Source of the DNA: Prosthecobacter sp.
GTDB taxonomy: Bacteria > Verrucomicrobiota > Verrucomicrobiia > Verrucomicrobiales > Verrucomicrobiaceae
Assembly: GCA_019186985.1 (NCBI GenBank)
Contig: JABARQ010000009.1
Location: 62,001-126,000, forward strand
Reading direction: 5' to 3'
Length of the DNA: 64,000 nucleotides
Shown here: positions 4,113-60,333 of the stretch, one piece after another
Position numbering within the stretch: the first letter of the stretch is position 1
Layout: each line of letters opens with the position of its first letter
Position numbers and translations under genes: made by a program
The notes under the pieces: generated by a model
What the model was told of the DNA's origin: nothing
Databases searched by the model: none
What the model saw: only the letters and a program-made list of their open reading frames with translations

Positions 4113-4201
4113 GCTTTGAATCCAGGCTCAAGATGCAGGTCTCACACCCGGCAAGCTCCAGCCTTGACCTCCGGGCCAACCCGGCCAGTATTGGCGGCCC
4201 G

Positions 4202-4258
4202 ATGACCACGCCCGCCCAGGCTCTGCTTCTCCTCAACCTTCGACTTACTCGAGGGTAG
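4202..4258 (+). CDS. leucine leader peptide upstream of leuA (attenuator-type)
   Basis: A short frame reads M-T-T-P-A-Q-A-L-L-L-L-N-L-R-L-T-R-G-stop: 6 of 18 codons are Leu, four of them consecutive (4223-4234), and the TAG stop lies 151 bp before leuA. Leu-rich leader peptides upstream of leu biosynthesis genes are the classic mark of ribosome-mediated attenuation, so this is probably a leucine sensor. I see no strong Shine-Dalgarno before ATG 4202. An in-frame ATG at 4133 would give 41 residues with the same Leu-rich end. The role is inferred from position and composition; the frame itself is read directly. Confidence 0.6.
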   Translation: MTTPAQALLLLNLRLTRG

Positions 4259-4409
4259 GCGGCCCGCGTTTCCTCGTCATGCCCTCGCTGCCACGTCGCA
4301 GCCATCTTCCAAGGAGCCCCGGCTTTCATCGCGCAAATTCAGCCGCCAGAAAGACTCATCTGGAGCCCTGACATCCCTTGAATCCTGTTTAAAGAAAGAA
4401 GTTCCCGCC
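4241..4409 (+). promoter_or_regulatory. leuA 5' leader with possible attenuator structures
   Basis: The last codons of the leader peptide contain CGAGGG (4250-4255), which can pair with CCCTCG (4282-4287). Immediately after comes a hairpin, GCTGC (4287-4291) with GCAGC (4298-4302). These pairings overlap by one base and could compete, as expected if a ribosome stalled on the Leu codons decides the fold. I see no stem followed by a strong U-tract in this stretch, so the switch could act on translation or through Rho instead of an intrinsic terminator. leuA itself is preceded by an A/G-rich stretch (AAAGAAAGAAG). Confidence 0.35.
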
Positions 4410-6074
4410 ATGTTGAAAAACCCCGCCACCAAATACCAGCGCTTCGATCCGGTGAAGCTGCCGAACCGCCAGTGGCCCTCCAAAACCCTCGATCAGGCCC
4501 CCATCTGGTGCTCCGTCGACCTGCGCGACGGCAACCAGGCCCTCGCCGTCCCCATGAACGTCTCGCAGAAGCTCGAGATGTTTGACGCCCTCGTGAAGTG
4601 CGGCTTCAAGGAGATCGAGGTCGGCTTCCCCAGCGCCTCCAACACCGAGTTCTCCTTCAACCGCCGCCTCATCGAGGAGAAGCGCATCCCGGACGACGTC
4701 ACCATCCAGGTGCTCGTCCAGGCCCGTGAGGACCTGATTGAAAAGACCGTGCAGAGCCTCATGGGCGCCAGGCAGGTCATCATCCACATGTACAACTCCA
4801 CCTCGCCTGCCCAGCGCAAGTACGTGTTCGGCAAGTCGAAGGAGGAGATCATCGAGGTGGCGCGCAACGGCGCCCGCCTGATCAAGGAGCGCCTGCACCG
4901 CCTGACTGAAGGCGGCACCAAGGTCACGCTGCAGTATTCGCCCGAAAGCTTCAGCGCCACCGAGGTCGAGTTCGCCAGGGAAATCAGCGAAGCCGTGATG
5001 GAGGTCTGGCAGCCCACGCCGGAGCACCGGATGATCCTCAACCTGCCCGACACCGTCGAGGTCTGCATGCCCAACGTCTATGCCGACCAGATCGAATGGA
5101 TCTGCACGAACATCAAAAACCGCGAGAGCCTCATCATCAGCCTGCACACGCACAACGACCGCGGCACAGGAACTGCGGCCACCGAGCTCGGCCTGCTGGC
5201 CGGCGCCGACCGCGTCGAAGGCACCCTGTTTGGCAACGGCGAGCGCACCGGCAACCTCGACATCGTCCAGGTCGCCATGAACCTCTACATGCACGGCACC
5301 GATCCCAGGCTGGACTTCAGCGACATGACCGGCCTGATCGCCATGTATGAACGCACCACCGGCATGACCGTGCCGCCGCGCCAGCCCTACGCCGGCGAAC
5401 TGGTCTTCACCGCCTTCAGCGGCAGCCACCAGGACGCGATCAAGAAGGGCCTGGCAGGTTACGAACAGCATCACAGCATCTGGGACGTCCCCTACCTCAC
5501 CATCGACCCGCATGATGTCGGCCGCGAGTACCGCGAGGTCATCCGCGTCAACAGCCAGAGCGGCAAGGGCGGCGTCGCCTACCTTCTCGAAAGCGAGTTC
5601 GGCATCGAGCTGCCCAAGGACATGCAGCGCGAGTTCGGCCCCATCGCCAACGACATCGTGGACAACCTGGGTCGCGAGGTCAGCGGCGCGGAATTGAAGC
5701 AGATGTTCTGGAAGGAATACATCGAGCGCGAAACCCCTTTCGCCCTGCATCACTTCCATGCCGACGGCGTCGACGGCGTCTTCACCTGCCGCAGCAGCCT
5801 CGTGGTCGAAGGCCGCGAGCGCGGCATCACCGGCACGGGCAACGGCCCCATCGCCGCCTTCGTGGACGCACTCGTCAGCGACGCAGGCGCCGCCCCGTTT
5901 GAAGTCGTCACCTACCGCGAGCAAAGCCTGAGCAGCGGCACCGGCGCCAGCGCCCTCGCCTTCATCCAGATCAAGACCACCGGCGGCAGGCTGGTCTGGG
6001 GGGCTGGCACGGACACCAACATCGAGCTCGCCTCCATCAAGGCCGTGGTCAGTGCGGTGAACCGCGCCCGCTGA
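4410..6074 (+). CDS. leuA: 2-isopropylmalate synthase
   Basis: The 554-residue product catalyses the first committed step of leucine synthesis, condensing acetyl-CoA with 2-ketoisovalerate in the cytoplasm. It has the DRE-TIM-metallolyase signature VDLRDGNQA (about residues 36-44), the metal-binding HTH of SLHTHNDRG (His246, His248), GNGERTGN, and a C-terminal LeuA regulatory domain from about residue 420, the usual site of leucine feedback. Length and the N-terminal phrase KYQRFDPVKLPNRQWP fit the long type-2 LeuA class (TIGR00970-like) known from actinobacteria and fungi. The gene stands alone, behind a Leu-rich leader peptide. No leuBCD genes are near. Confidence 0.95.
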   Translation: MLKNPATKYQRFDPVKLPNRQWPSKTLDQAPIWCSVDLRDGNQALAVPMNVSQKLEMFDALVKCGFKEIEVGFPSASNTEFSFNRRLIEEKRIPDDVTIQVLVQAREDLIEKTVQSLMGARQVIIHMYNSTSPAQRKYVFGKSKEEIIEVARNGARLIKERLHRLTEGGTKVTLQYSPESFSATEVEFAREISEAVMEVWQPTPEHRMILNLPDTVEVCMPNVYADQIEWICTNIKNRESLIISLHTHNDRGTGTAATELGLLAGADRVEGTLFGNGERTGNLDIVQVAMNLYMHGTDPRLDFSDMTGLIAMYERTTGMTVPPRQPYAGELVFTAFSGSHQDAIKKGLAGYEQHHSIWDVPYLTIDPHDVGREYREVIRVNSQSGKGGVAYLLESEFGIELPKDMQREFGPIANDIVDNLGREVSGAELKQMFWKEYIERETPFALHHFHADGVDGVFTCRSSLVVEGRERGITGTGNGPIAAFVDALVSDAGAAPFEVVTYREQSLSSGTGASALAFIQIKTTGGRLVWGAGTDTNIELASIKAVVSAVNRAR

Positions 6075-6091
6075 TTCCAAGGCTTCGTCGT

Positions 6092-6127
6092 GCACACCGG
6101 CCTCACCTAGGGGCCGGTGTGCCTTTC
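6092..6127. terminator. bidirectional terminator between leuA and pabB
   Basis: An 11-bp perfect stem, GCACACCGGCC (6092-6102) with GGCCGGTGTGC (6112-6122), encloses a 9-nt loop in the 61-bp gap between the convergent genes. The plus strand continues CTTTC. The strong stem and the position suit a shared terminator. Confidence 0.65.
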
Positions 6128-6135
6128 AGCAGGCG

Positions 6136-7389
6136 TCAGGACCACGCGGTGAGCAGCCCGCTGGCCTTGTGCAGCGTCTCCTCCCATTCCCTTTCCGGAA
6201 TGCTGTCCGCCACAATGCCTGAACCGGCATGGAAGCTGATCTGACGACCCTGCTTCACCGCCGTACGGATGGCGATGTTCCACTGGCTGGAGCCATCGAA
6301 GCCAAAGAAGCCGATCGCTCCCGTGTAAAGCCCGCGCGGATGCCCCTCCAGCTCGGCGATGACCTCCAGCGCCCGCCGTTTCGGAGCGCCGCTGATGCTG
6401 CCTCCCGGGAAGCAGGCCCGGAAGGCGGCGGCATGACTGATGCCCGGCTTCAGCCTTCCCGTCACGGTGGACACCAGATGATACACCTGCGCAAAGCCCT
6501 CCACGCGCCAGAGATCCGGAGTCTGCACGCTGCCAAACTCACACACCTGCCCCAGGTCATTGCGCTCCAGGTCGGTGATCATCAGCAGCTCGGCGCGCTC
6601 CTTTTCACACAGCGGCAGCTCCCGAGCACTGGCGGCATCACGCTCCGGATCTCCGGGAAACCTCGGCCTGGTCCCCTTGATCGGACGCGTGGTGATGACC
6701 GGCCCGTCCATCTTGAGAAACAGCTCCGGTGACGCCGACAGCACGGTGCTGTCACCCAGCTCGACAAAGGCCGCATGAGGTGCGGGCGACACCTTGCGCA
6801 GACGCTGGTAAAGCTCCAGCGCCCGGGCCTGCTCCGGCCAATCGGCGAACCAAGGATGTGACAAATTCACCTGGTAGATGTCACCCGCCGCGATGTACTC
6901 CTGGGCGCGGCGCACCGCAGCCGCATACTCCTCCCTGGTCACCAGGGGCCGGAAATCCAGTCGCGGGGCGGCGGCGGACCGGCGCGGCGCGTTTCCATCA
7001 AGTCCGGCTGGCGGCCTGCCCAGAACGCCCCACTGCCTAGAATCGTGAGTGAACCTCAGCAGCCCGTCATACACCCCCAGGCGGAACCTGCCGTCAAAGC
7101 CCACCCAGCCCGCCAGACCACCCGCCGCCTTTTGCAAACCCTCGGTCAAGGCCAGCTCCACCTGCTCCCAGTCATGATCCATTTGCCCCTCCAAAACCTG
7201 CCCAGGCGCCGCCCCAAGGATGGAGACACTGCCCGGCCCGGTCACGGCGCTGTCCAGCCAGAGCAAGCCTGGATGATCTTCCATTCCAAGCGCCGCCTCC
7301 AAGGGTTCCCCGTTGATCGCCAACGGCTTCCAGCCATCTCCCCCCGCATGTGGAGAGGAGGGTGAATGGGTGAAAGAAGTCTGAAGCAT
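6136..7389 (-). CDS. pabB: aminodeoxychorismate synthase component I
   Basis: The frame extends upstream, but the chorismate-binding protein begins at ATG 7389 (MLQTSFTHSP), giving 417 residues. PabB converts chorismate, with ammonia from PabA, to 4-amino-4-deoxychorismate for folate synthesis. The chorismate-binding core is complete: YQVNLSHPW, PIKGTRPR with Lys238 (the Lys typical of PabB, where TrpE usually has Ala), ELLMITDLERNDLG, FPGGSISGAPK, and the terminal GSGIVADS. The N-terminal region is short, as in single-domain PabB; no pabA or pabC lies beside it. It diverges from the gene at 7441, with 51 bp between starts. The longer upstream frame over-runs that divergent gene and is rejected. 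Confidence 0.9.
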   Translation of the reverse strand: MLQTSFTHSPSSPHAGGDGWKPLAINGEPLEAALGMEDHPGLLWLDSAVTGPGSVSILGAAPGQVLEGQMDHDWEQVELALTEGLQKAAGGLAGWVGFDGRFRLGVYDGLLRFTHDSRQWGVLGRPPAGLDGNAPRRSAAAPRLDFRPLVTREEYAAAVRRAQEYIAAGDIYQVNLSHPWFADWPEQARALELYQRLRKVSPAPHAAFVELGDSTVLSASPELFLKMDGPVITTRPIKGTRPRFPGDPERDAASARELPLCEKERAELLMITDLERNDLGQVCEFGSVQTPDLWRVEGFAQVYHLVSTVTGRLKPGISHAAAFRACFPGGSISGAPKRRALEVIAELEGHPRGLYTGAIGFFGFDGSSQWNIAIRTAVKQGRQISFHAGSGIVADSIPEREWEETLHKASGLLTAWS

Positions 7390-7440
7390 TGACACTGCGG
7401 GGCGGGGATCGTACCATACGTTTTTCCTGCGGCAAACGGC

Positions 7441-8685
7441 ATGGCGTCCCCCCCCACGATCCAGCATGCAAGCCAGGGCCGGGCAAACGCCATGGCCCTT
7501 GGCATCCTGTGCAGTCTGATGGCCGTGGAAACCGGTCTCATGATCCGCGCGGTCAGCCTCAGCGAGTCCAGGCCCGCATCCGATTCGCCTGCGGCAAAGG
7601 CAGCTCCTTCCCCGAATGCCGCAGCCGTGACGGAAACCAGGCCCGCCCCGGTCCTCGCGGCTCCGCCCGTCAGCATCAGCCCGCCACCCGTCGGACAGCT
7701 TGCCGCCCCTGCGACAGCTCCGGCGGTTTCCACTCCGCCCGCAGTTGCAGGGTTCAGCCCGCCGCCCATCGGCAGCCTGCAGCTTCCCGGAAACTCCCCA
7801 TCGGTTGCCCCGCCAGCACCGCCCCCCGCAGCTCCGCCAAAAACGGCCGCCAGCCCTCCACGAACCAACGTTGCTTCCACGACCTCCAGGCCCGGCCCCG
7901 CAGACCCCGCCGCAGGCATGTCCCTGCCGGAGATGATCGACCTCGCGAAACAAGTCCGTTCCCTGGGCGACATGCAGGGCGCCCTGGAGGTGCTGAAACG
8001 TGCCGACCTCCAGTTCCCCGCCTCGCCCGAAGTCATCGCCGAAACCGCCACCTCCTATGAAACCATGGGGCTTGCCGACAAGGCCACCTCGCTCTGGAAG
8101 CAGCTCGCCGCGATGGAATCCGCCCGTGCCGGAGGCTATGGCGACCTCGCCAAAAGAAAGCTGAACATCTCCAGCACCGCCGCCGGCGCGCCCGCTCCGG
8201 CCTTCTCCGGCGACTTCGGCCCCAAGATGCTCTCCCTCGGCGCCTGCACCGCCACCCGTGATCCTTCAACGGTGAACGGTGAAAAGGTCGTGCTGCGCAT
8301 CCCCATCCTGCGCAACGGCAACGCCACCGTCGATCCCTCCCAGGTGGACATCGACGTCTACTTCTTTGACCGCGTGAACGGCGAAAAAGTCGCCCAGACC
8401 ATCGCGGATGAACCCTTGTCCGCCTGGGGTGCCGCCCCGGTGGACTGGAGCGGCATTGGTGAAGAGCCGCTCGATGTCACTTATTTTCTGCCGACACTCA
8501 CACCCGGTGAAGTCGCCGCCCACGGACGCCGTGCCTACCACGGTTACGTCGTGCGGCTCTACTACCAGCACAAGCTCCAGGACGTGGCCGCCGAACCGCG
8601 CGACCTCCTGGACTTCGGCCAGTCCGCGCCTCAGACCGTGCCCGGAGGCGGGATGAACCCTCTGCTGCCACCGGTGTCGAACTGA
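7441..8685 (+). CDS. membrane-anchored Pro-rich protein with TPR-like segment
   Basis: The 414-residue product has one hydrophobic helix near the N-terminus (about 17-37), a long Ala/Pro-rich linker (about 45-150), a helical stretch resembling one or two TPR units (about 160-225, with ASPEVIAETATSYETMG), and a C-terminal beta-rich domain (about 240-400, with VVLRIPILRNGNATVDPSQ). I cannot assign a function. The next gene starts 23 bp after its stop and encodes a pseudokinase-FGE-like protein, so the two are probably one transcript and may act together at the membrane. No strong Shine-Dalgarno marks the start; an in-frame Met at codon 18 is an alternative. Confidence 0.7.
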   Translation: MASPPTIQHASQGRANAMALGILCSLMAVETGLMIRAVSLSESRPASDSPAAKAAPSPNAAAVTETRPAPVLAAPPVSISPPPVGQLAAPATAPAVSTPPAVAGFSPPPIGSLQLPGNSPSVAPPAPPPAAPPKTAASPPRTNVASTTSRPGPADPAAGMSLPEMIDLAKQVRSLGDMQGALEVLKRADLQFPASPEVIAETATSYETMGLADKATSLWKQLAAMESARAGGYGDLAKRKLNISSTAAGAPAPAFSGDFGPKMLSLGACTATRDPSTVNGEKVVLRIPILRNGNATVDPSQVDIDVYFFDRVNGEKVAQTIADEPLSAWGAAPVDWSGIGEEPLDVTYFLPTLTPGEVAAHGRRAYHGYVVRLYYQHKLQDVAAEPRDLLDFGQSAPQTVPGGGMNPLLPPVSN

Positions 8686-8708
8686 CGGCCCGTCCCACGA
8701 CCGCCCAG

Positions 8709-10706
8709 ATGACCATTCTTTTTTTTGACGTCAACGCCGCCACACGCAGCGAACGGGCAGCAGCGCTTGCCCAGCAGACAGGCTGGAAGGTCCACGCCAT
8801 CGGCTCCGTCGCCGAAGGCCGCGCCTGGCTGGCCAAGGCCCGTGAGCTCGACCTCCTCATTACCGAGGCCATCGTTGATGAAAAGAACAGCGGCTTCACC
8901 CTGCGTGATGCAGCACTCGCCAGGTTCAACAACGCCCGCGTTCTTTTCACCACCCGCTACGACCTCACCGGTTACGAGGCCAAGGTCAGCGGCTGGCCTG
9001 TCCTGGCCGACGCCCCCTACAGCCTGGAAAAGCTGATCGCCAAGGCCCACAAGGCCCTGGAGATCGCCCCGCCGACCCAGATGCTCGTCCCTGCCGAGGC
9101 CTCCCCCCCGCCCTACCTCCAGGCCGGGACCATGCTCGGCCAGTATCAGGTGCTGGAACGGCTCTCCTACGAAAACGAATCCGAAACCTACCGCGCCATC
9201 CAGGTGAGCGTGCAGCGCCCGGTGGCCCTGGTGCTGCTGCGTCCCGAGCTCTCCCACCGCCCGGAGGTGGTGGAACGCTTCAAGGCCCGCGAACGGCTCA
9301 AGGCCTCCATCACCCACCCTCGCGTGGCGCCGCTTTATGAGGCCGGCGAAGTCAACGGCCTCGTCTTCTACACCCGCGAACTGCCACGCGGACACAACCT
9401 CGAGGAAATCGCCGCCGCCGGTGAAACCCTGTCCGAACGCCGCGTCGCCGAACTCCTCTACGGCGTCGCCGAAGCCATGGACTTCGCCCTGGAACGCGGC
9501 TGCTACCACCGCCGCCTGGAACCGCGTGACATCTTTCTGGACGACCAGGGACGCGCCAGCATCGTCAACATCTTCCGCCCCGCCGACACCCGCACCCGTG
9601 ACTCCCGCGAAGAAGTCGCCGAGCTGCTCTCCCTCATTGACCCCATCGCCGCCGACGGCAAGGCACGCGGCCTCATCGCCCAGCTTTCCGAAAAGCCGCT
9701 CGACTGGTCCGGCCTCATGGCGGCGCTTGATGATGTGCGTGAAGCCATGCGTGAGCGGTCCATCATGCGCCGCATTGAAGCCGAGGAAGGTGGCGGCAGG
9801 TCCAGCGCTCAGAAAGGCATGCCCTGGTGGTTCTGGGCAGGCGCCCTGGCCTCGGCCGCCATCGTGTTCCTCCTGGGCAACCTCGCCGGCACCGCCACCC
9901 CCACCGTCGTGGCCGCCACCGCCATCCTCAAGGAGCCCGACATGGTGGAGATCCCCGCAGGGCCCTTCCGCTATCAGAAAAACGAACGCCGCAACCTGCC
10001 CTCCTTCTGGATCAGCCGTCACGAAGTCACGCTGGGTCAGTACGCCGACTTCCTCGCCGCCCTGAAAAAGCTGCCTCCGCGCAGCTTCGACCACCCCGAG
10101 CAGCCAAGGACCAAGGCCGGCCACACCCCGCCGAAATGGGACGACACCTACGCCGCCGCCAAGGCCGGCTCCACATTCAACGGACAGACCATCAACCTCA
10201 ACACCCCCGTAACCCAGGTGGACTGGTGGGACGCCTATGCCTTCGCCAAATGGCGCGGCGTGCGCCTGCCCACCGAGGAGGAATGGGAAAAGGCCGCGCG
10301 CGGCCGGGACGGCCTGCTCTTCCCCTGGGGAGACAAGCCCGACAAGACAGCCGCCAACCTCGGCGATGACTACGACGCCAACGGCAGGAAGGGCGGCAGG
10401 GTCGACGGCTACAACCTCTTCGCACCCGTCGACCGCAAGACCGCCGACATCAGCCCCTTTGGCATCCATGACATGGCAGGCAACGTCAGCGAATGGACCG
10501 CCGGTGAATTCAGAAACGACCCCTGGCCCGCCCATCCGGATTATCCCGACCTGCGTGTTCCCGTGGTGCGCGGCGGCCACTTCGCCCTCAAGGCCAGCAA
10601 CGACCTGCTGACCAACCGCTTCTTCACCGAGTCCGCCGGCGAAACCACCCTGGCCCGCGGCTTCCGTGTCGCCAGCGACTCGCCGCCCTCCGGCGGCAAA
10701 GGCTGA
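8709..10706 (+). CDS. pseudoreceiver-pseudokinase-transmembrane-FGE-like domain protein
   Basis: The 665-residue protein has four parts. Residues 1-120 look like a response-regulator receiver, but the phosphoacceptor position reads Glu (LLITEAI, Glu53). Residues about 141-350 have a Ser/Thr kinase fold outline with every catalytic motif degraded: no beta-3 Lys (PVALVLLRP), HRD replaced by HRR (267-269), and no DFG (IVNIF, 285-289). A transmembrane helix spans about 373-394. Residues about 408-660 are a formylglycine-generating-enzyme (SUMF1)-like domain, with LPTEEEWEKAARG, MAGNVSEW and ARGFRVA, but without the catalytic Cys residues. It therefore looks like a binding or scaffold protein, not an enzyme. 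It follows the TPR-like protein by 23 bp. Confidence 0.85.
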   Translation: MTILFFDVNAATRSERAAALAQQTGWKVHAIGSVAEGRAWLAKARELDLLITEAIVDEKNSGFTLRDAALARFNNARVLFTTRYDLTGYEAKVSGWPVLADAPYSLEKLIAKAHKALEIAPPTQMLVPAEASPPPYLQAGTMLGQYQVLERLSYENESETYRAIQVSVQRPVALVLLRPELSHRPEVVERFKARERLKASITHPRVAPLYEAGEVNGLVFYTRELPRGHNLEEIAAAGETLSERRVAELLYGVAEAMDFALERGCYHRRLEPRDIFLDDQGRASIVNIFRPADTRTRDSREEVAELLSLIDPIAADGKARGLIAQLSEKPLDWSGLMAALDDVREAMRERSIMRRIEAEEGGGRSSAQKGMPWWFWAGALASAAIVFLLGNLAGTATPTVVAATAILKEPDMVEIPAGPFRYQKNERRNLPSFWISRHEVTLGQYADFLAALKKLPPRSFDHPEQPRTKAGHTPPKWDDTYAAAKAGSTFNGQTINLNTPVTQVDWWDAYAFAKWRGVRLPTEEEWEKAARGRDGLLFPWGDKPDKTAANLGDDYDANGRKGGRVDGYNLFAPVDRKTADISPFGIHDMAGNVSEWTAGEFRNDPWPAHPDYPDLRVPVVRGGHFALKASNDLLTNRFFTESAGETTLARGFRVASDSPPSGGKG

Positions 10707-18110: not shown

Positions 18111-19370
18111 CTACTTGCCGATGCACCAGAGGTTCTTGTAGCCGCGGATGAACAGCTGGCCGTCGCTCACCGCGATGGAGCCGATGATCTTTTCGCCCAG
18201 GGTGTTGGTGGAGAGGAGTTCAAACTTCGGACTGGCCTTGAACACGAAGCAGTCGCCGCCCTGGTTCGCCGCATAGCATTTTCCATCAGCCGAAAGCACC
18301 AGTGACGACCAGTTCTGGCCCGTGGGGCCGGGTCCCTTGAGGCGCTCGCTGTAGACAAGCTCGCCGGTCTTCAAGTCACGGCATTCGGCCAGCCCACCGT
18401 CGCTCAGGATGTAGTGATGGCCCTCGTGGATGACGCCGCTGCCAATGCGCTGGCTGACCTTGGGCAGGTGCCAGAGGCGCTTCCCGGTCACATCACCGCT
18501 TCCTCCCGCCTTCACCGCCACGCCCATGCCGCCATAGCCGCCAAAGGCGACCACCACATTGTCCGGCGTCAGCAACGGGGAATTGTAGACCAGCTTGTTC
18601 AGGCCTTCGCAGGTCCACAACTCACCGCCTTTGAGCGGGTCAAAGGCGGCGACCCGGCCGGGATAACTGAGAATCAGCTCGTAGCGATCACCGATCCTGC
18701 GGAAAAGCGGGTCCGCCCAGGAGCCGAGCCAGTTCTTGTTGCCCGACTCACCGCTGTCACCGCCGGGTTCATCATGCTGCCAGAGAGTTTTTCCGGTCTT
18801 CAGATCAAAGGCATACAGGGTGGTCTTGGGGCCTGGTCCGAAGTTCAGGAAGACACGGTCTCCTGCAATCACCGGGGAAGTGCCGTTGCCCCAGATATGG
18901 TGCTGCCGGCCCAGGTCAGTGCGCTTCCAGAGCTCCTTGCCATCCAGGTCATAGCAGAACACGCCGGCGCTCGCAAAAAACACCACGATCTGCGAACCGT
19001 TGGTGGCGGGGGAGGCGGCGCAGTAGGGATTGGTGGAATGGGTGAGTTCAGGCTCCTTGTAGGTGGTTCCTGCTTCCCAGAGCTGTCGCCCCGTCCTGCG
19101 GTCAAAGCAGAGCAGCAGACGTCGCCCGGCCTTTTCCACCGCCTGGGTCACGAACAACTTCTCGCCCCAAATCACAGGCGTGGAATTGCCACGGTCTGGC
19201 AGTTCCACCCTCCAGGCCACGTTCTCCGTCTGGCTCCATTTTTCAGGCAGCCCGGATTCGGAGGTGGTGCCATCTCCGTTCGAGCCCCGCCACATCGGCC
19301 AGTTGGCTGCCTGGGTCAGTGAACCCAGACCCAGAATGATCGAGACAATACGCAGGATGGATGCATGCAT
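18111..19370 (-). CDS. exported PQQ-binding-like beta-propeller protein
   Basis: ATG 19370 opens a signal peptide (MHASILRIVSIILGLGSLTQA), giving 419 residues; the frame runs eight codons further up without a better start. The start of the mature protein, NWPMWRGSNGDGTTSESGLP, and repeated blade motifs such as CFDRRTGRQLWEA, AFDLKTGKTLWQHDEPGG and AFDPLKGGELWTCEG identify a PQQ-like (YxWD/quinoprotein) propeller. In PVC bacteria these stand-alone propellers are abundant and of unknown function; PQQ binding is not shown. It is preceded by a candidate promoter with an overlapping palindrome (19429-19480). Confidence 0.88.
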   Translation of the reverse strand: MHASILRIVSIILGLGSLTQAANWPMWRGSNGDGTTSESGLPEKWSQTENVAWRVELPDRGNSTPVIWGEKLFVTQAVEKAGRRLLLCFDRRTGRQLWEAGTTYKEPELTHSTNPYCAASPATNGSQIVVFFASAGVFCYDLDGKELWKRTDLGRQHHIWGNGTSPVIAGDRVFLNFGPGPKTTLYAFDLKTGKTLWQHDEPGGDSGESGNKNWLGSWADPLFRRIGDRYELILSYPGRVAAFDPLKGGELWTCEGLNKLVYNSPLLTPDNVVVAFGGYGGMGVAVKAGGSGDVTGKRLWHLPKVSQRIGSGVIHEGHHYILSDGGLAECRDLKTGELVYSERLKGPGPTGQNWSSLVLSADGKCYAANQGGDCFVFKASPKFELLSTNTLGEKIIGSIAVSDGQLFIRGYKNLWCIGK

Positions 19371-19428
19371 GTCCCATAAACGGCATCCCGACACGCATCT
19401 TCCAAACCCGCCACCGACTCACTCCCAC

Positions 19429-19452
19429 TTGATCGATCATGGTCTCGATCAA
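19429..19452. promoter_or_regulatory. operator-like inverted repeat upstream of the PQQ-propeller gene
   Basis: A perfect 8-bp inverted repeat, TTGATCGA (19429-19436) and TCGATCAA (19445-19452), has an 8-bp spacer. It lies about 60 bp before ATG 19370 and abuts the -10 element of the candidate minus-strand promoter, so a bound repressor would cover the transcription start. Symmetry and position are seen; the regulatory role is inferred. Confidence 0.45.
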
Positions 19453-19480
19453 ATTTAGTGGTTTTTATATATTTTCTGAA
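19452..19480 (-). promoter_or_regulatory. candidate sigma70-type promoter of the PQQ-propeller gene
   Basis: On the minus strand, TTCAGA (19480-19475) and TAAATT (19457-19452) are separated by 17 bp in an AT-rich setting and face the gene that starts at 19370. The -10 box is good and the -35 box weak. Confidence 0.4.
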
Positions 19481-19768
19481 TCACACCAGCCGACCCGTGA
19501 AACCTTCTTGGGCGACTGCCAATCCAGACCGAGGCAACGCTTCTTGCCCAGCTTGTTCAATGCCAGGAGTTTGGGATGTATCCTCGGCTGCTCCTGCCCA
19601 ATTCCATTCAAAGCAGCCCTTGACGTTTGCCAAAACAGTTCAATTGAACACACACAAGTGACTCAAGGTGTCAAGGGGCTTTCTTCTAAAATTATCAGAG
19701 TTTTGCCCCAAAAACGAGGTCTCATTTTTGATAATTCATTCTCTTTTTGCAAAAATCATCCCCCCGGG

Positions 19769-19797
19769 TTGACGGCCTGGGCAAAAGTTTTTACTCT
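19769..19797 (+). promoter_or_regulatory. candidate sigma70-type promoter for a small RNA
   Basis: TTGACG (19769-19774) and TACTCT (19792-19797) have exactly 17 bp between them. The -35 box matches consensus at five of six positions. No protein gene follows on this strand within 2 kb, but a terminator hairpin ends about 150 bp downstream. Confidence 0.5.
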
Positions 19798-19803
19798 CCC
19801 GCT

Positions 19804-19947
19804 GTCAACGCCCGGCGGTTTCCGGGTGCTGATCACAGAGTTGCAGCTTCTTAGCTTCGACTTTCGTGCCAAACGGTCCTCACTGTTGTTGGTTGCTGGA
19901 TCGCCAAACAGACCCTCTGGTTTTCGCAGACCAGAGGGTCTTTTGTT
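19804..19947 (+). ncRNA. candidate small RNA of about 144 nt
   Basis: The candidate is bounded by a good promoter (expected start about 19804) and an intrinsic terminator. It carries a small hairpin near its 5' end, CCCGG (19811-19815) with CCGGG (19822-19826), and the strong terminator stem at its 3' end. No Shine-Dalgarno plus convincing reading frame is visible. I do not recognise it as tmRNA, 6S, SRP or RNase P RNA. The same hairpin could simply end apaG transcription from the other side, so existence of the RNA is inferred. Confidence 0.4.
19911..19947. terminator. strong intrinsic terminator, usable in both directions
   Basis: A perfect 10-bp stem, GACCCTCTGG (19911-19920) with CCAGAGGGTC (19931-19940), is followed on the plus strand by TTTTGTT. 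On the minus strand it lies 33 bp after the apaG stop and is followed by TGTTTGG, a weaker tract. It can end both apaG and the candidate small RNA. Confidence 0.8.
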
Positions 19948-19972
19948 GGCGGCGAAAATCGAACCGGTTGAC

Positions 19973-20359
19973 TCAGGCCATCAAGGGCGGGTGCATTTCA
20001 AATCGCGGAATGCGCACGAAGACAGGCCGCCCCTGCTTCGTGGTGCCGAAAAATGAACCAGTCGCCGAGCTCTCCGCCTTGATCACATGGTAGGAGTTGT
20101 AGCTGAACGTCTGTCCTGGCTCGAGCTTTGGAAACTGCCCCACGACGCCATCTCCCTCGACCACCAGCGTGTCTCCATCCGTGTCGCGAACAATCCACTT
20201 TCTTCCAAAGATGTTCACAGTCTCCGCTGATCCGTTGTGAATGGAGACATGGTACACAAACGGATGCGGCCTGTCGGGCGGAGCCGGCCGTGTCGGATCA
20301 TACGACACGTCGTCCACGGTGGCTGTCAGACCAGGCAGATGATCGAAGTGAACGGTCAT
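19973..20359 (-). CDS. apaG: ApaG-domain protein
   Basis: The 128-residue protein is a complete single-domain ApaG (fibronectin-III-like fold): YHVSIHNGSAETVNIFGRKW, then VEGDGVVGQFPKLEPGQTFSYNS, and a C-terminal RIPRFEMHPP. ApaG was named from its link with apaH and is described as affecting Co2+/Mg2+ resistance; its biochemical role is unsettled. The ApaG fold also occurs in F-box proteins of eukaryotes. It stands alone between a tRNA and an intergenic region, and ends at the 19911-19947 hairpin. Confidence 0.92.
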   Translation of the reverse strand: MTVHFDHLPGLTATVDDVSYDPTRPAPPDRPHPFVYHVSIHNGSAETVNIFGRKWIVRDTDGDTLVVEGDGVVGQFPKLEPGQTFSYNSYHVIKAESSATGSFFGTTKQGRPVFVRIPRFEMHPPLMA

Positions 20360-52610: not shown

Positions 52611-53240
52611 ATGAAAAAGGTCTGGCCATTTAAAGAAGCTGCCAACATCGCGACATTTGTGTCCAAGCATCTCTTTTCGGGCGATGCTGTCTGTTACGCC
52701 TACCATGACTGGGAAGATGGCTCGTGGCAGTTCCTCCCCAACAGGGGCACCCAACAATCTGACGTAATGTTGGTGTGTTTGGAGGATGTGTATAAACTCG
52801 ACACATCCATCGGTGAGCCGGCTGACTTGCCCCCTGGCTGGATGGCAAAACGAGACGGGCCATTTTCACCATGGTCACGTTCAAAAGATCATCCTTATCC
52901 AGTCTTTGCAGATGATGGCTACTATCTGGATGATGCGACACAATACGAACGGCTCTATCCTGACATATGCCAGATTCCCAAAGAGCTGGATCGGAAAACG
53001 CTGAGGGCAGGCGATCTGGTAAAGCTGATTTTCCGCTTCGCGAATGAATGGTCTCCCAGAAAGGACAACGAATGCGAAAGAATGTGGGTGCAGGTGCTTG
53101 CCGCAGATGAATACAATCTCAACTACCAAGGGAAGCTGCTAAGCACACCACACCTACATTCAGCGATTGGTGAAGGTCACGAATTATGGTTTCATCCTCT
53201 TCATGTCTTTGCTCTGGAAAGAGCAGGGGACTCAGATTGA
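52611..53240 (+). CDS. small soluble protein with DUF2185/DUF2314-like halves
   Basis: The 209-residue protein has an N-terminal half with DAVCYAYHDWEDGSWQFLPN and PPGWMAKRDGPFSPWSRSK, and a C-terminal half with LVKLIFRFANEW, ERMWVQVLAADEYNLNYQGKL and LHVFALERA. The halves recall DUF2185 and DUF2314 domains, known from immunity-like proteins of polymorphic toxin systems, but I cannot confirm either. Its GC is clearly lower than neighbours, suggesting transfer. No toxin gene is beside it. The start at 52611 has no strong Shine-Dalgarno. It converges on the DHDPS-like gene. Confidence 0.7.
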   Translation: MKKVWPFKEAANIATFVSKHLFSGDAVCYAYHDWEDGSWQFLPNRGTQQSDVMLVCLEDVYKLDTSIGEPADLPPGWMAKRDGPFSPWSRSKDHPYPVFADDGYYLDDATQYERLYPDICQIPKELDRKTLRAGDLVKLIFRFANEWSPRKDNECERMWVQVLAADEYNLNYQGKLLSTPHLHSAIGEGHELWFHPLHVFALERAGDSD

Positions 53241-57364: not shown

Positions 57365-57957
57365 ATGCCACGCCCCCGCCGATCAGCTCCAATCGCATCC
57401 GGCCCCAAAGCCATGGACAGCTACAAGCATCCAGCGGCGGACTTGGCGCTGCGGCCAGAGATGGGGGCGCAGCCGCAGCTTAAGAAGCAAGCTTATCGCT
57501 ACGATTCCTCACTCTCGCACTCCATGGAGAGGGATGGGCTGAATCCGGCGCGGGCAGCGACGGAGACGCACATCACGCGGATTTCGGAACTGGGCTTGCA
57601 GGTCGCGGATCTGGCGCTAAAGCTGTCGGAGCGCGATGTGGAGATCAAGCAGCTCAAGGCGGAACTCAAAGCCGCCCAGTCCGCCTTGCGGAAGGTCAGC
57701 GGGACGTTCCTGAACTACAGCGGGAAGGCGGAGCGGCTGAGCTTTGAGGTGTCCACGCTGCCTCTTTTTGTGCATGAACGGCTGAGTACGAAGGCCATCG
57801 TGGAGACGCTGAAAGGCCACCGCAAGGACGCCGCAAGGACGCCGCCGGAGACATTGCCGGCGATCACCGGCAGATTGCCGTGGAGGTCATCGACCCGCAC
57901 GGCAACAAGCTGCTGGCACTGCGGAAACTGGAAACTGCGGGAGGAAATAGAAAGTGA
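57365..57957 (+). pseudogene. internally deleted site-specific DNA methyltransferase
   Basis: Residues from ATG 57365 (or 57413) resemble the N-terminus of type III-like site-specific DNA methyltransferases: LRPEMGAQPQLKKQ, YRYDSSLS, LNYSGKAERLSFEVSTLPLF, VHERLSTKAIVETLKGHR. About residue 160 the text jumps, in another frame, to IAVEVIDPHGNKLLALRKLE, which resembles the C-terminus of the same family. The catalytic centre with the DPPY motif is gone, so it cannot methylate. The C-terminal frame stops with TGA 57955-57957, overlapping the GTG start of the ATPase. Family membership is recalled from knowledge, not searched. The frame change coincides with an 11-bp tandem duplication. Confidence 0.65.
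57820..57844 (+). repeat. 11-bp tandem duplication at the methyltransferase deletion junction
   Basis: The unit CCGCAAGGACG occurs twice in direct succession (57820-57830, 57831-57841) and is followed by a partial third (CCG). Removing one unit brings the N-terminal and C-terminal methyltransferase frames into register, reading R-K-D-A-A-G-D-I-A. This is seen directly in the sequence. Confidence 0.9.
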
Positions 57958-58925
57958 CGACCATGAACGCGAAACACATCACTGACATCACCATCAAGAA
58001 CTTCCGTGGTTTCGAAAATCTGGAGCTTCACGGCCTCGGCGCAGTGAATCTGATCGTGGGCCAGAACAACGCAGGGAAGACCTCGCTGCTGGAGGCGATC
58101 AACGCAGCTGCAGCACCGGGAATGATTAGCAAGCTTCCTGGCCTGTTTCGGGCCAATGCGGGCAAAGTCGCAGAACGTTACTTTCATTGGCTCGTATCTG
58201 ACGGGGCAAAGACCTGCGAAGTTTCAGCTGACACCGACGATGGAAAACGAGGGATTGTGATCTCCAAGGGAACTTTACCGCCACGCCTTGATGATTATTA
58301 TCGAAAGGAGCAGATCGGCCCTTTCGAAATTGGGAGGTGGTCCACGGGGCGAAATATGATCGAAGTCTGGGCCGTTTCCGTCCAGCATCGCTCGCCTGAT
58401 GGGTTAGTGCCGAACTTTGCTAACGCAGTGAGATCGCCTCAGAGTGAAGGGCTTATGGAGCAATTGCTTGCCAAGGTAGATCCCCGAATCAAAACGGTGC
58501 GTCTCGACTATGCGGATGAAGACCCATTCATCTCGGTGGACATCGGCTTGAGCGAGCGAGTTCCACTGCCGCAAGCAGGCCAAGGCATCTATCGTATGGT
58601 TGCGATCTTGTCAGACCTGTTGGGGGTGAAGCCAAAAGTTTGCCTGATCGACGAGATTGAGAATGGCATCCACTACACCGCCTTGAAGCAGGTTTGGAAA
58701 GGCATCGCTGAGATTTCTAGCACACTCGGCATCCAGGTCTTTGCCACCACGCACAGTCGTGAATGTTTAGAAGCTGCCCACGAGGTCTTTTTCACCGATG
58801 ATCCTAAAGGCGAAAAGGACTTCGCCGTCATCCAGTTGATGCGCGTGAAGGGGCAGGTGATCGGCAAGGTGCTGAACGAGGCACGCGTGGACGCGGCGAT
58901 GGAAAATGAAATCGAACTTCGCTGA
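57954..58925 (+). CDS. AAA/ABC-type ATPase of a defence-like two-gene module (OLD/PARIS-like)
   Basis: The GTG at 57954 is chosen because GGGAGG ends 9 nt before it; an in-frame ATG lies at 57963. The 323-residue product has a DUF2813/OLD-like start TIKNFRGFENLEL, Walker A GQNNAGKT (36-43), a signature-like QAGQGIYRM (207-215), Walker B LIDEIE (Asp233-Glu234) and a switch His in ATTHSRE (His267). These are all key residues of an SMC/OLD-type ATPase. Its GTG overlaps the stop of the methyltransferase remnant (GTGA), and a TOPRIM gene starts 3 bp after its stop. The pairing resembles PARIS (AriA/AriB), with the nuclease domain in a separate protein. GC is lower than in the surroundings. Confidence 0.85.
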   Translation: MTTMNAKHITDITIKNFRGFENLELHGLGAVNLIVGQNNAGKTSLLEAINAAAAPGMISKLPGLFRANAGKVAERYFHWLVSDGAKTCEVSADTDDGKRGIVISKGTLPPRLDDYYRKEQIGPFEIGRWSTGRNMIEVWAVSVQHRSPDGLVPNFANAVRSPQSEGLMEQLLAKVDPRIKTVRLDYADEDPFISVDIGLSERVPLPQAGQGIYRMVAILSDLLGVKPKVCLIDEIENGIHYTALKQVWKGIAEISSTLGIQVFATTHSRECLEAAHEVFFTDDPKGEKDFAVIQLMRVKGQVIGKVLNEARVDAAMENEIELR

Positions 58926-58928
58926 GCC

Positions 58929-59579
58929 ATGAGTGTTGCCATCCCCAAAGAGCATGAGTGCGATCACATCCTGATCGTCGAAGGTTACAGCGACCTGCAT
59001 TTCTACGCTTCGATGATGCACCAGATGAAGCGCCTCAAGGGAGTGTTCATCAAAGAGTTCAAAGGCAAGTCGCCCATTCTCAACCGGCAGACGCTGGGAG
59101 ACTATCTAGAACCTCGGCTCGACAAGAAGAAGAGCATCGGTATTCTGCTTGATGCAGACGACAACCCGGCTGGCACAGCCACGGCGGTTCGAGAACGTCT
59201 CAGAGAAATCACGGGAAGGCTCGTAACTGAGGGTTCGTGGCACGAGAAGGAAGGGGAAGCGCGGCTGGGCTTTTTCGTCGCCCCGACGCCTGACCAAAAA
59301 GGCGAGATTGAAACTCTGGCCTGGAATGCATTCCCGGATGAAGGGATTCACCTCTCAATGAAACAAGCGGTGGACGAGTTTCATGCCAGGATGACCGAAC
59401 TCAATTCCGAGTGGAAATCCCACAGCCCGGACAAGGGGCGGATTGGAGCCTATCTCGCGGCAGCCTATGACGAGGATCCACGTCTCGGACCAGGAGCGAG
59501 GGAGAAGAAATTTGACTTCGCTGCTCCCGGCTTTGCGAGGTTGCGGGCCTTCCTTGAAATTCTCCCTCAAAGCGCATGA
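58929..59579 (+). CDS. stand-alone TOPRIM protein, DUF3226-like
   Basis: The 216-residue protein has the two TOPRIM motifs: ILIVEGYSDLHFY (Glu18, with Asp22) and IGILLDADDNP (Asp75, Asp77, Asp78). Between and after these it matches, from memory, DUF3226-type stand-alone TOPRIM proteins (EARLGFFVAPTPDQKGEIET). In OLD-type systems such a domain is the metal-dependent nuclease that an ATPase controls. The gene starts 3 bp after the ATPase stop. It has a low-GC character and no export signal. Name DUF3226 is a recollection; TOPRIM residues are seen directly. Confidence 0.8.
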   Translation: MSVAIPKEHECDHILIVEGYSDLHFYASMMHQMKRLKGVFIKEFKGKSPILNRQTLGDYLEPRLDKKKSIGILLDADDNPAGTATAVRERLREITGRLVTEGSWHEKEGEARLGFFVAPTPDQKGEIETLAWNAFPDEGIHLSMKQAVDEFHARMTELNSEWKSHSPDKGRIGAYLAAAYDEDPRLGPGAREKKFDFAAPGFARLRAFLEILPQSA

Positions 59580-59661
59580 GCAACTTCGAAGTCCCCAACT
59601 CCATCCTGAATAGTCCCTTCTAGGAACACAAGAAACATTGGTGTAGCTTGGACGGGCAACC

Positions 59662-60333
59662 ATGAAAACACACCTCACGCTCCTTCTTCTCGTCTCATCA
59701 CTCGCCTTCGCCGCAGACCCGGCGCCTCCCGTCACGCAAACCTGCCAGCCTGAAAGGCTCGTCGCGGCGGAGGCCTTTGATAAGCCGGAATCCTTCGCCA
59801 GGGAAAAGCAGCCGGGAACAGAGGGCTGGCGCGGCGGCATTGGCACCTGGAGCATCCGCGACGGCGCTGCCTACGCCGTGCAGGAAGGCCCGAGTGAAAA
59901 ACGTCCGAACGGCCATGAGGCCGTCTGCGAGCACCTCGTCGATCTTGGAGATTATGTCCTGACAGGCGAGTTCAAGCTCGGCCCGTCACCGCAGATCGGC
60001 TTTGTCTGCCGCGACACCCACCAGCCTAACCATCATCAGGGCCGGATCGTGATCACCCCCACCGCCCTCTGGATTCAAAAGATGAGCGGCATCGCCAAGG
60101 AAACGCGCCGCGAGGAGCTGAAGAAGATCGAGGTCAGGATCGACCCCGGCACCTGGCACCGCATCACCGTTGAAATCTGCGGTGATCACTTCCTCGCAAG
60201 GATCGACGGCCATGTCCTCGAAGCCAGCCACGAACGCTTCAAGGACCGCAAGGGCCGCATCGGCTTCGTGGCGCGTGGCGAAGGCGCCCAGTTCCGCAAC
60301 ATCGCCCTGTGGAGCGCGAAGCCGAAGGAGTAG
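59662..60333 (+). CDS. exported DUF1080-like/LamG-type protein
   Basis: The 223-residue protein has a signal peptide (MKTHLTLLLLVSSLAFA) and a concanavalin-like jelly roll: WRGGIGTWSIRDGAAYAVQEG, YVLTGEFKLGPSPQIGFVCRD, and WHRITVEICGDHFLARIDGHV with KGRIGFVARGEGAQFRNIALW at the end. The text pattern is that of DUF1080 (3-keto-disaccharide hydrolase-like) proteins, common in PVC bacteria. Its high GC separates it from the defence-like island just upstream. It precedes a Gfo/Idh/MocA gene by 159 bp, a usual neighbour of this family. Confidence 0.82.
   Translation: MKTHLTLLLLVSSLAFAADPAPPVTQTCQPERLVAAEAFDKPESFAREKQPGTEGWRGGIGTWSIRDGAAYAVQEGPSEKRPNGHEAVCEHLVDLGDYVLTGEFKLGPSPQIGFVCRDTHQPNHHQGRIVITPTALWIQKMSGIAKETRREELKKIEVRIDPGTWHRITVEICGDHFLARIDGHVLEASHERFKDRKGRIGFVARGEGAQFRNIALWSAKPKE

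Follow-up and report, generated by a model that had tools for sequence, protein, structure and literature searches.

The window analysed here, a stretch of 64,000 nucleotides from Prosthecobacter sp. (contig JABARQ010000009.1, positions 62,001 to 126,000), contains two intact genes between the remains of two others, all read on the + strand. The first intact gene, here called A (57954..58925), starts with GTG and encodes a 323-amino-acid (aa) ABC ATPase of the SMC/Rad50/PtuA-like, AbiLi/PDC-M38A type. The second, B (58929..59579), starts with ATG and encodes a 216-aa DUF3226 TOPRIM protein of the PDC-M38B type with OLD-like active-site residues; for both genes the assignment draws on Pfam, PADLOC, alignment and predicted structure. 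The two open reading frames (ORFs) are adjacent and separated by 3 bp (GCC), as the initial annotation of this DNA had reported. In front of A lies what is left of a type III-like N6/N4 methyltransferase (Mod) gene: an N-terminal part corresponding to residues 1-161 (57365..57832), a tandem duplication of 11 bp where the deletion has joined the two parts, read from the sequence (57820..57841), and a C-terminal tail (57856..57957), whose TGA (57955-57957) overlaps the GTG of A in a GTGA at 57954-57957, again as annotated. The GGAGG at 57940..57944, with a spacing of 9 nt to this GTG, is its likely ribosome-binding site. Behind B lies the remnant of a type III-like restriction helicase (Res) gene (59576..59683), whose ATG overlaps the TGA of B in an ATGA; it comprises the first 37 residues, is interrupted by one TGA and one TAG (the latter at 59621-59623) and is then truncated. 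This fourth piece had been missed in the initial annotation.

The closest homologous locus, found on a contig of a Verrucomicrobia metagenome-assembled genome (MAG) and here called L003, is a complete Mod-A-B-Res operon. Its Mod has 941 aa and matches N6_N4_Mtase (6.5e-28, Pfam) and MTase_III (8.4e-143, PADLOC), and its Res has 1032 aa and matches ResIII (2.1e-6). Mod and A overlap there by ATG/TGA, A and B are 3 bp apart, and Res begins 216 bp past B. The Mod remnant in the window keeps residues 1-161 (46% identity, E 1.8e-25) and 913-939 (matched at 57856-57936; 67% identity, E 9.7e-4) of the L003 Mod, in different frames, and the Res remnant is 56% identical to residues 1-37 of the L003 Res (E 9.3e-5); alignments with seven Mods and six Res agree with all three pieces. 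Residues 162-912 of Mod have no match in the window, and the methyltransferase motifs fall in this missing part. Some 750 codons, including the catalytic core, are missing from the middle of Mod, and of Res only the start survives. Of the two proteins that type III restriction-modification requires, a catalytic Mod with DPPY and S-adenosylmethionine motifs is absent from the window, and the helicase-nuclease Res is represented by residues 1-37 only, with stops. When the window's own genome (5.9 Mb, 96% complete) was searched with the L003 Mod and Res as queries, two ORFs matching short stretches of Mod motifs were the only other Mod matches at E<=0.001, and there was no other Res match at that threshold. 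The methyltransferase is dead, then, while A and B are uninterrupted ORFs, which agrees with what the initial annotation had described.

Because the remnants on both sides match the intact L003 operon, the locus appears to have originated as mod-A-B-res. The idea that three genes once formed a coupled operon holds as far as the coupling to a preceding type III-like methyltransferase is concerned, which is intact in L003; the gene number does not hold, since Res came after B and makes four. The initial annotation had also proposed that the neighbours of the best homologues be examined for an intact methyltransferase in front, and its idea of coupling would have lost its footing if homologous pairs never lay next to one; the L003 pair follows an intact Mod. 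A quick maximum-likelihood tree built from 93 ATPase rows places the ATPases of the window and of L003 as sisters (support of 95 in the Shimodaira-Hasegawa-like approximate likelihood ratio test); two pairs from Polyangium (L004/L005), where we find no match to Mod or Res, join next (98), followed by L006 (99). The sister relationship between the ATPases of the window and of L003 suggests, on the simplest reading, that the pair was captured once by a mod-res operon. Another close relative, found afterwards and left out of the tree (L231, genome G717, L231:9497-11121), comes from the same taxonomic order and has an A that is 49% identical to that of the window; no Mod is present in the 9.5 kb upstream of it, nor any Res before the contig stops 0.6 kb downstream.

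The base composition of the pair differs from that of its surroundings, as the initial annotation had noted: the G+C content (GC) is 53.8% for A and 55.1% for B vs 64.0% for the window. Only 12 of 631 segments of the length of A have a lower GC than A, and 24 of 634 segments of the length of B have a lower GC than B. At third codon positions the GC of the pair is 63% vs 88% and 84% in two neighbour genes. Both measures suggest a foreign origin of the pair. Two other low-GC patches occur in the window, one with a 209-aa ORF at 52611-53240 (57-59% GC) and one at 19001-20000 (54%). In our view this locus is likely a relic operon, of the type III-like mod-A-B-res kind and probably acquired horizontally, in which the intact pair would encode an ATPase and an OLD-type TOPRIM nuclease that act in abortive infection.

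The site itself was compared with six genomes of the family that have the window's upstream neighbour gene. The downstream neighbour (the gene at 59662), sought by tblastn, is present in two of the six. In one of these, from the same genus (L202, genome G405, 4113-10018), the neighbour genes are separated by about 3.9 kb in which two other ORFs lie; in the other (L206) they are about 9 kb apart, again with other ORFs between, and the downstream match is cut by the end of the stretch. In the window the same two neighbours enclose the 2.4 kb relic operon. The relic operon sits where relatives carry other genes between the same neighbours, and a clean empty insertion site was not found among the six family genomes.

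A encodes a short ABC ATPase that belongs with the SMC, Rad50, PtuA and OLD proteins. The search with hidden Markov models that the initial annotation had proposed returns AAA_15/AAA_21 in Pfam, and the best PADLOC model is AbiLi (9.5e-49), followed by PDC-M38A (1.4e-45); the AriA models (4.5e-21 and 1e-20) come well behind these two. The annotated Walker A (residues 36-43), Walker B (233-234) and His267 are all present, and an alignment of 30 sequences, the window's included, shows no variation at G36, G41-K42-T43, D233-E234 and H267. Besides the invariant Walker A residues, the conserved motifs comprise DEIENGIH and THS. The predicted model (mean predicted local distance difference test score, pLDDT, 91.1) has a head of the SMC/Rad50/PtuA type, with Z scores of 18-21 among the matches listed. 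Every residue that is invariant in the alignments is retained in both window proteins.

The product of B matches DUF3226 in Pfam (E 9.4e-22), one of the two families that had been named for a check; the other, DUF4435, gives E 0.17 and 12.1 bits vs a cut-off of 27. In PADLOC, two PDC-M38B models (1.6e-11) and AriB (E 0.011) are the only matches at E<=1. Among 35 aligned sequences including that of the window, E18 and D75 are invariant; the position of D77 holds D in 28, E in 5 and N in 2, that of D22 is D or E in 32, and E128 and K169 are each conserved in 33. The annotated active-site residues are thus upheld for Glu18 and Asp75 and largely for Asp77, and Asp78 is not conserved. The predicted model of B (pLDDT 95.7) was aligned to solved structures with VIA-align, in which a Z below 8 may mean merely a common arrangement. 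The best match is PH0156 (2p62; Z 12.7 over 189 residues, 3.3 A), and it is followed by C-terminal regions of OLD nucleases (9.2-10.6), a small TOPRIM protein (8.1), GajA (7.5) and AriB (6.9). Foldseek gives the OLD nuclease domain 6njx as its sole match at E<=0.001, with AriB at 0.035, and a sequence profile search of solved relatives returns PH0156 at 8.4e-7 and AriB at 0.023. The two-metal site of the Burkholderia OLD nuclease, as described in the relevant passages of PMC6755086, consists of E400, E404, D455, D457, T506, E508 and K562. By order and secondary structure, E18, D22, D75, D77, E128 and K169 of B correspond to E400, E404, D455, D457, E508 and K562. B is thus predicted to be an OLD-type TOPRIM nuclease on a polypeptide of its own.

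Several known systems resemble this pair. The first is PDC-M38, a label that we take to denote an untested PADLOC candidate: both of its families are adjacent in the window, 3 bp apart, and match at the values given above. The window pair differs from it in deriving from a type III operon. AbiL shares the AbiLi-type ATPase and is a two-gene ATPase-TOPRIM abortive infection system; however, AbiLii is RloB-like according to the section of PMC10440598 that deals with it, and no AbiLii model is among the PADLOC matches of B. The initial annotation had likened the pair to PARIS, which also consists of a split ABC ATPase and a TOPRIM protein and whose AriB matches B weakly by structure and profile. 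However, B is a DUF3226 and not a DUF4435 protein, and A is nearer to AbiLi and PDC-M38A than to AriA. Membership in PARIS is rejected, as both DUF4435 (12.1 bits) and AriB (E 0.011) remain below cut-off. Class 2 OLD proteins, such as Gabija GajA, share the TOPRIM and helical domain, with active-site positions that agree in order, but they consist of a single polypeptide, followed by a gene for a UvrD-like helicase, whereas the window has two ORFs.

Abortive infection is the function that we infer as most likely, with A as sensor and antitoxin and B as nuclease effector. This assignment draws on two precedents, each as given in part of the source: AriB is sequestered by AriA and released upon sensing of Ocr (PMC12409363), and TOPRIM_OLD toxins are neutralised by AAA proteins in tested pairs (PMC10440598). 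By analogy, A would hold B inactive and sense a cue of infection; it would then let B cut nucleic acid, either host tRNA or DNA, and the cutting would lead to abortive infection of the kind seen in AbiL, PARIS and the AAA/TOPRIM toxin-antitoxin pairs. Inside the operon, A and B would have served as a backup once restriction had failed. A toxin B that must be restrained may also account for a pair that outlived Mod and Res.

Some observations weigh against this reading. The mapping of B onto the OLD nuclease is by order and helix position, without superposition of the active sites; the position of T506 (126 in B) is variable; and an unrelated fold, succinyl-CoA synthetase (Z 8.5), stands between OLD and GajA in the VIA-align list. 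No paper on DUF3226 or PDC-M38 was found in the open-access literature searched (bioRxiv preprints apart). The genes often found next to such pairs have housekeeping functions (hisH/hisA, biotin carboxylase, phosphoketolase), so the proposed defence role rests on the protein families and on analogy rather than on placement in defence islands. Just one of the 94 distinct pairs is linked to Mod-Res, and B is frameshifted in L231, the close relative without Mod. The intact state of A and B may also merely reflect recent decay, which is conceivable because the identity of the Mod remnant to L003 (46%) is near that of A (52%) and B (54%). Taken further, the whole island could be a dying restriction operon in which A and B happen not to have been broken yet. 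The deleted and interrupted flanking genes and the broken B of the related L231 fit this explanation, as does the genome at large, which has one close copy of A (a second match reaches merely 30% over 80 residues) and no further Mod or Res beyond the short motif matches. However, there is no stop or frameshift in the 539 codons of A and B while both flanks carry lesions, and the alignment-invariant residues have all been kept. We regard simple decay as possible but on balance unlikely.

A pair that functions without its former operon is what the distribution of its relatives leads one to expect. We collected 108 ATPase loci from genome, viral and plasmid records and from contigs of relatives. 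Three of these lie at contig ends and were left out, and in 97 of the 105 testable loci a DUF3226-type ORF follows A on the same strand; removal of three duplicates leaves 94 distinct pairs. Both flanks extend for at least 3 kb in 61 of these and for at least 1 kb in 81. A Mod-Res system of the L003 type adjoins the pair only in L003 itself, the window being counted besides. In L038 and L045 a weaker match to Mod occurs, at a distance from the pair of 5.0 kb and 6.7 kb respectively, and in L081 an ORF within 6 kb of the pair has methyltransferase motifs; neither Mod nor Res was found at 11 further Verrucomicrobiota pairs. Because relatives occur without both genes, the pair probably needs neither Mod nor Res. 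The earlier suggestion that the pair may work alone is strengthened to a probable one, since only one of the 94 distinct pairs, that of L003, was seen with such a Mod-Res around it.

The occurrence of the pair is patchy. Among the genomes sampled, its ATPase is found in 9 of 387 from the phylum, in 15 of 384 from the class with the L003 A as query, and in 15 of 386 from the order, the window's genome being counted each time. In PLSDB, 142 records match A (129 of them Klebsiella) and 114 match B (110 Klebsiella), and among the best 40 matches listed for A and the best 30 for B the great majority of plasmids are about 4.1-4.2 kb in size. One of them, a 4167-bp ColRNAI Klebsiella plasmid (L165, NZ_CP076014.1), carries the pair and two other annotated genes, for a helix-turn-helix protein and Rop, in gene tables that are incomplete in PLSDB. 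The pair is also found on contigs classed as viral, and phage records contain no match to A at E<=1e-10. The patchy occurrence in the phylum and the order, together with the presence on small plasmids and contigs classed as viral, argues against a role outside defence, in DNA repair or metabolism. Such a role would be in keeping with the housekeeping neighbours, and it has a precedent in the archaeal OLD-family protein Cran1, which part of PMC12796447 places in the cell cycle; we nevertheless consider it very improbable.

The same neighbours bear on a further explanation, under which the pair would be a small, semi-selfish, toxin-antitoxin-like cassette that enters any transcribed operon without a promoter of its own, mod-res being just one host. 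A close co-directional gene is present upstream in 49, downstream in 50 and on both sides in 28 of the 94 pairs. Pfam was run on 45 of the 49 upstream proteins (two more were added later) and on 45 of the 50 downstream proteins, and among the best 25 of 46 upstream and of 36 downstream families listed the commonest upstream are phosphoketolase and GATase, and the commonest downstream are histidine phosphatase, HisA and biotin carboxylase. Neighbours in his, hemE and similar operons were named from these Pfam counts and from reading of the sequence. The pair is flanked by hisH and hisA in L021, L043, L051 and L068 and by one of the two in L014, L058 and L075; it stands between enoyl-CoA hydratase and biotin carboxylase in L017 and L037, and between hemE and trpA in L064. 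The pairs next to his genes are mostly from Campylobacterota, with the addition of the unassigned MAG L043. Copies of the pair occur in tandem in L051 and L058, and in L068 one copy lies on each side of hisA. These operon sites, the multiple copies and junctions of only a few bases are what a cassette of this kind would produce. However, the counts of co-directional neighbours come without a control, so that an excess over chance is not shown, and a riding cassette is compatible with a function in defence. We see this explanation as having a modest chance at best.

At least four of the 94 pairs adjoin methylation-based systems. In addition to L003, these are L046 (3-5972), BREX-related, with an N6_N4-type methyltransferase upstream and DUF499 downstream of the pair; L076 (1518-6044), also BREX-related, with a DUF1156 methyltransferase downstream; and L032, with a Type ISP enzyme upstream. 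Relatives of the L003 Mod (E<=1e-60) occur at 28 places in 27 of the 387 phylum genomes; these, L003 and 8 of the 36 plasmid records with a Mod match (one near copy was skipped) give 37 Mod loci. In 20 of them the order is Mod-to-Res and in 14 Res-to-Mod, and three are without a Res on the same strand. Extra genes lie between mod and res in 10 of the 20 Mod-to-Res operons, a descriptive count without chance control. Among the 10 operons free of inserts, five are from genus g71 (L140-L143, L148) and three are on Shinella/Agrobacterium plasmids (L168, L169, L171); in L142, L143 and L148 the called Mod and Res ORFs overlap by hundreds of bases, probably through overlong starts.

Five of the ten inserts contain an AAA_15/21-type ATPase. 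It is accompanied by DUF3226 in L003 and by a DUF4276 protein in L146 (4827-6640), where the two match HEC-01A/HEC-01B; it stands alone, as a 548-aa protein, in L137; and it is followed by a small protein in L152 (4220-6096), from a Verrucomicrobiota genome, and in L172 (9498-11593), on a Planktothrix plasmid. The small proteins of these two loci match each other (28% over 138 aa, E 1e-14) and are thereby relatives; both are tentatively read as PIN nucleases from a Pfam match at E 0.2 in L172 only and a VIDTN start; that of L152 has no Pfam match. The remaining inserts are Fic/SoFic in L149; a 160-aa protein with a DUF1828 protein matching PDC-M24B in L138; NYN and LOTUS proteins in L170 and a 144-aa protein matching PDC-M19A and a type I specificity model in L144, both with Res in pieces; and a 354-aa protein without identity in L167.

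These inserts fit an explanation in which the pair is tied to this particular type III system as its guard. It would be triggered by a phage inhibitor that disables Mod or Res, on the model of PrrC, the guard of EcoprrI, and of PARIS, which is set off by Ocr, and without Mod and Res it would be idle or rewired. The filled slot in half of the Mod-to-Res operons, half of these inserts with an ATPase of the same type, supports a guard, and so do the pairs in or beside BREX-related methyltransferase and DUF499 genes (L046, L076) and the Type ISP enzyme (L032). PrrC is an unrelated nuclease. Together with RloB it nevertheless illustrates the principle, as both are accessory genes in a restriction operon, PrrC in EcoprrI (PMC12707154) and RloB in type I operons (PMC10440598); the loci concerned are type I, however, and RloB is merely a distant TOPRIM relative of B. 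Sections of PMC12707154 describe PrrC and PARIS as guardians of restriction and some restriction systems as coupled to accessory genes that are thought to be toxins. Also comparable are the OLD-ABC ATPases with TOPRIM, HNH, restriction endonuclease or PIN nucleases that are embedded in BREX and BREX-related operons and, according to passages of PMC12839542, are proposed as backup effectors against anti-restriction. As in L046 and L076, an ATPase-nuclease pair lies there amid methyltransferase and restriction genes; the operon of the window and L003 differs from these in being a type III-like Mod-Res operon, which in the window has been lost. Against a dedicated guard stand the small number of pairs found beside such genes, the Polyangium sister clade and L231 (over the 9.5 kb upstream and 0.6 kb downstream) without a match to Mod or Res, and the persistence of the pair in the window without either gene. 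A dedicated guard of this type III system is to our minds a doubtful but serious possibility.

Embedded ATPase-nuclease pairs are already known as a kind, and what is new here is the type III host operon and the relic state. The claim that this is not a described system has to be narrowed to the same extent: the pair is already the PADLOC candidate PDC-M38, and passages of PMC12839542 present embedded modules for BREX and BREX-related operons, but the type III setting was not found reported. 'DUF3226' is absent from the main text of that paper, and its passages on type III do not treat mod-res operons; in the open-access literature searched, no report of embedded ATPase-nuclease pairs in type III operons was found.

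The preferred reading, a relic operon with an abortive-infection pair, gives DUF3226/PDC-M38, a candidate defence pair, a physical location within a type III restriction operon, and its prediction for B is an OLD-type nuclease under the restraint of an ABC ATPase. With extra genes in 10 of the 20 Mod-to-Res operons examined, mod-res operons are places to seek second-line modules, and the intact-operon and relic-operon versions of one module allow a direct test of its dependence on the host restriction system. More speculatively, type III-like mod-res operons may carry a swappable guard slot for unrelated second-line modules (ABC ATPase with DUF3226 TOPRIM protein, ATPase with DUF4276, ATPase with PIN-like protein, lone OLD-like ATPase, Fic and others) that would kill the cell when restriction fails, and the window would then show one such module that lives on, autonomous and addictive, as a suicide switch after its restriction system has died. 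We offer this as a tentative idea; if it were true, restriction operons would be a source from which stand-alone defence pairs arise or are released.

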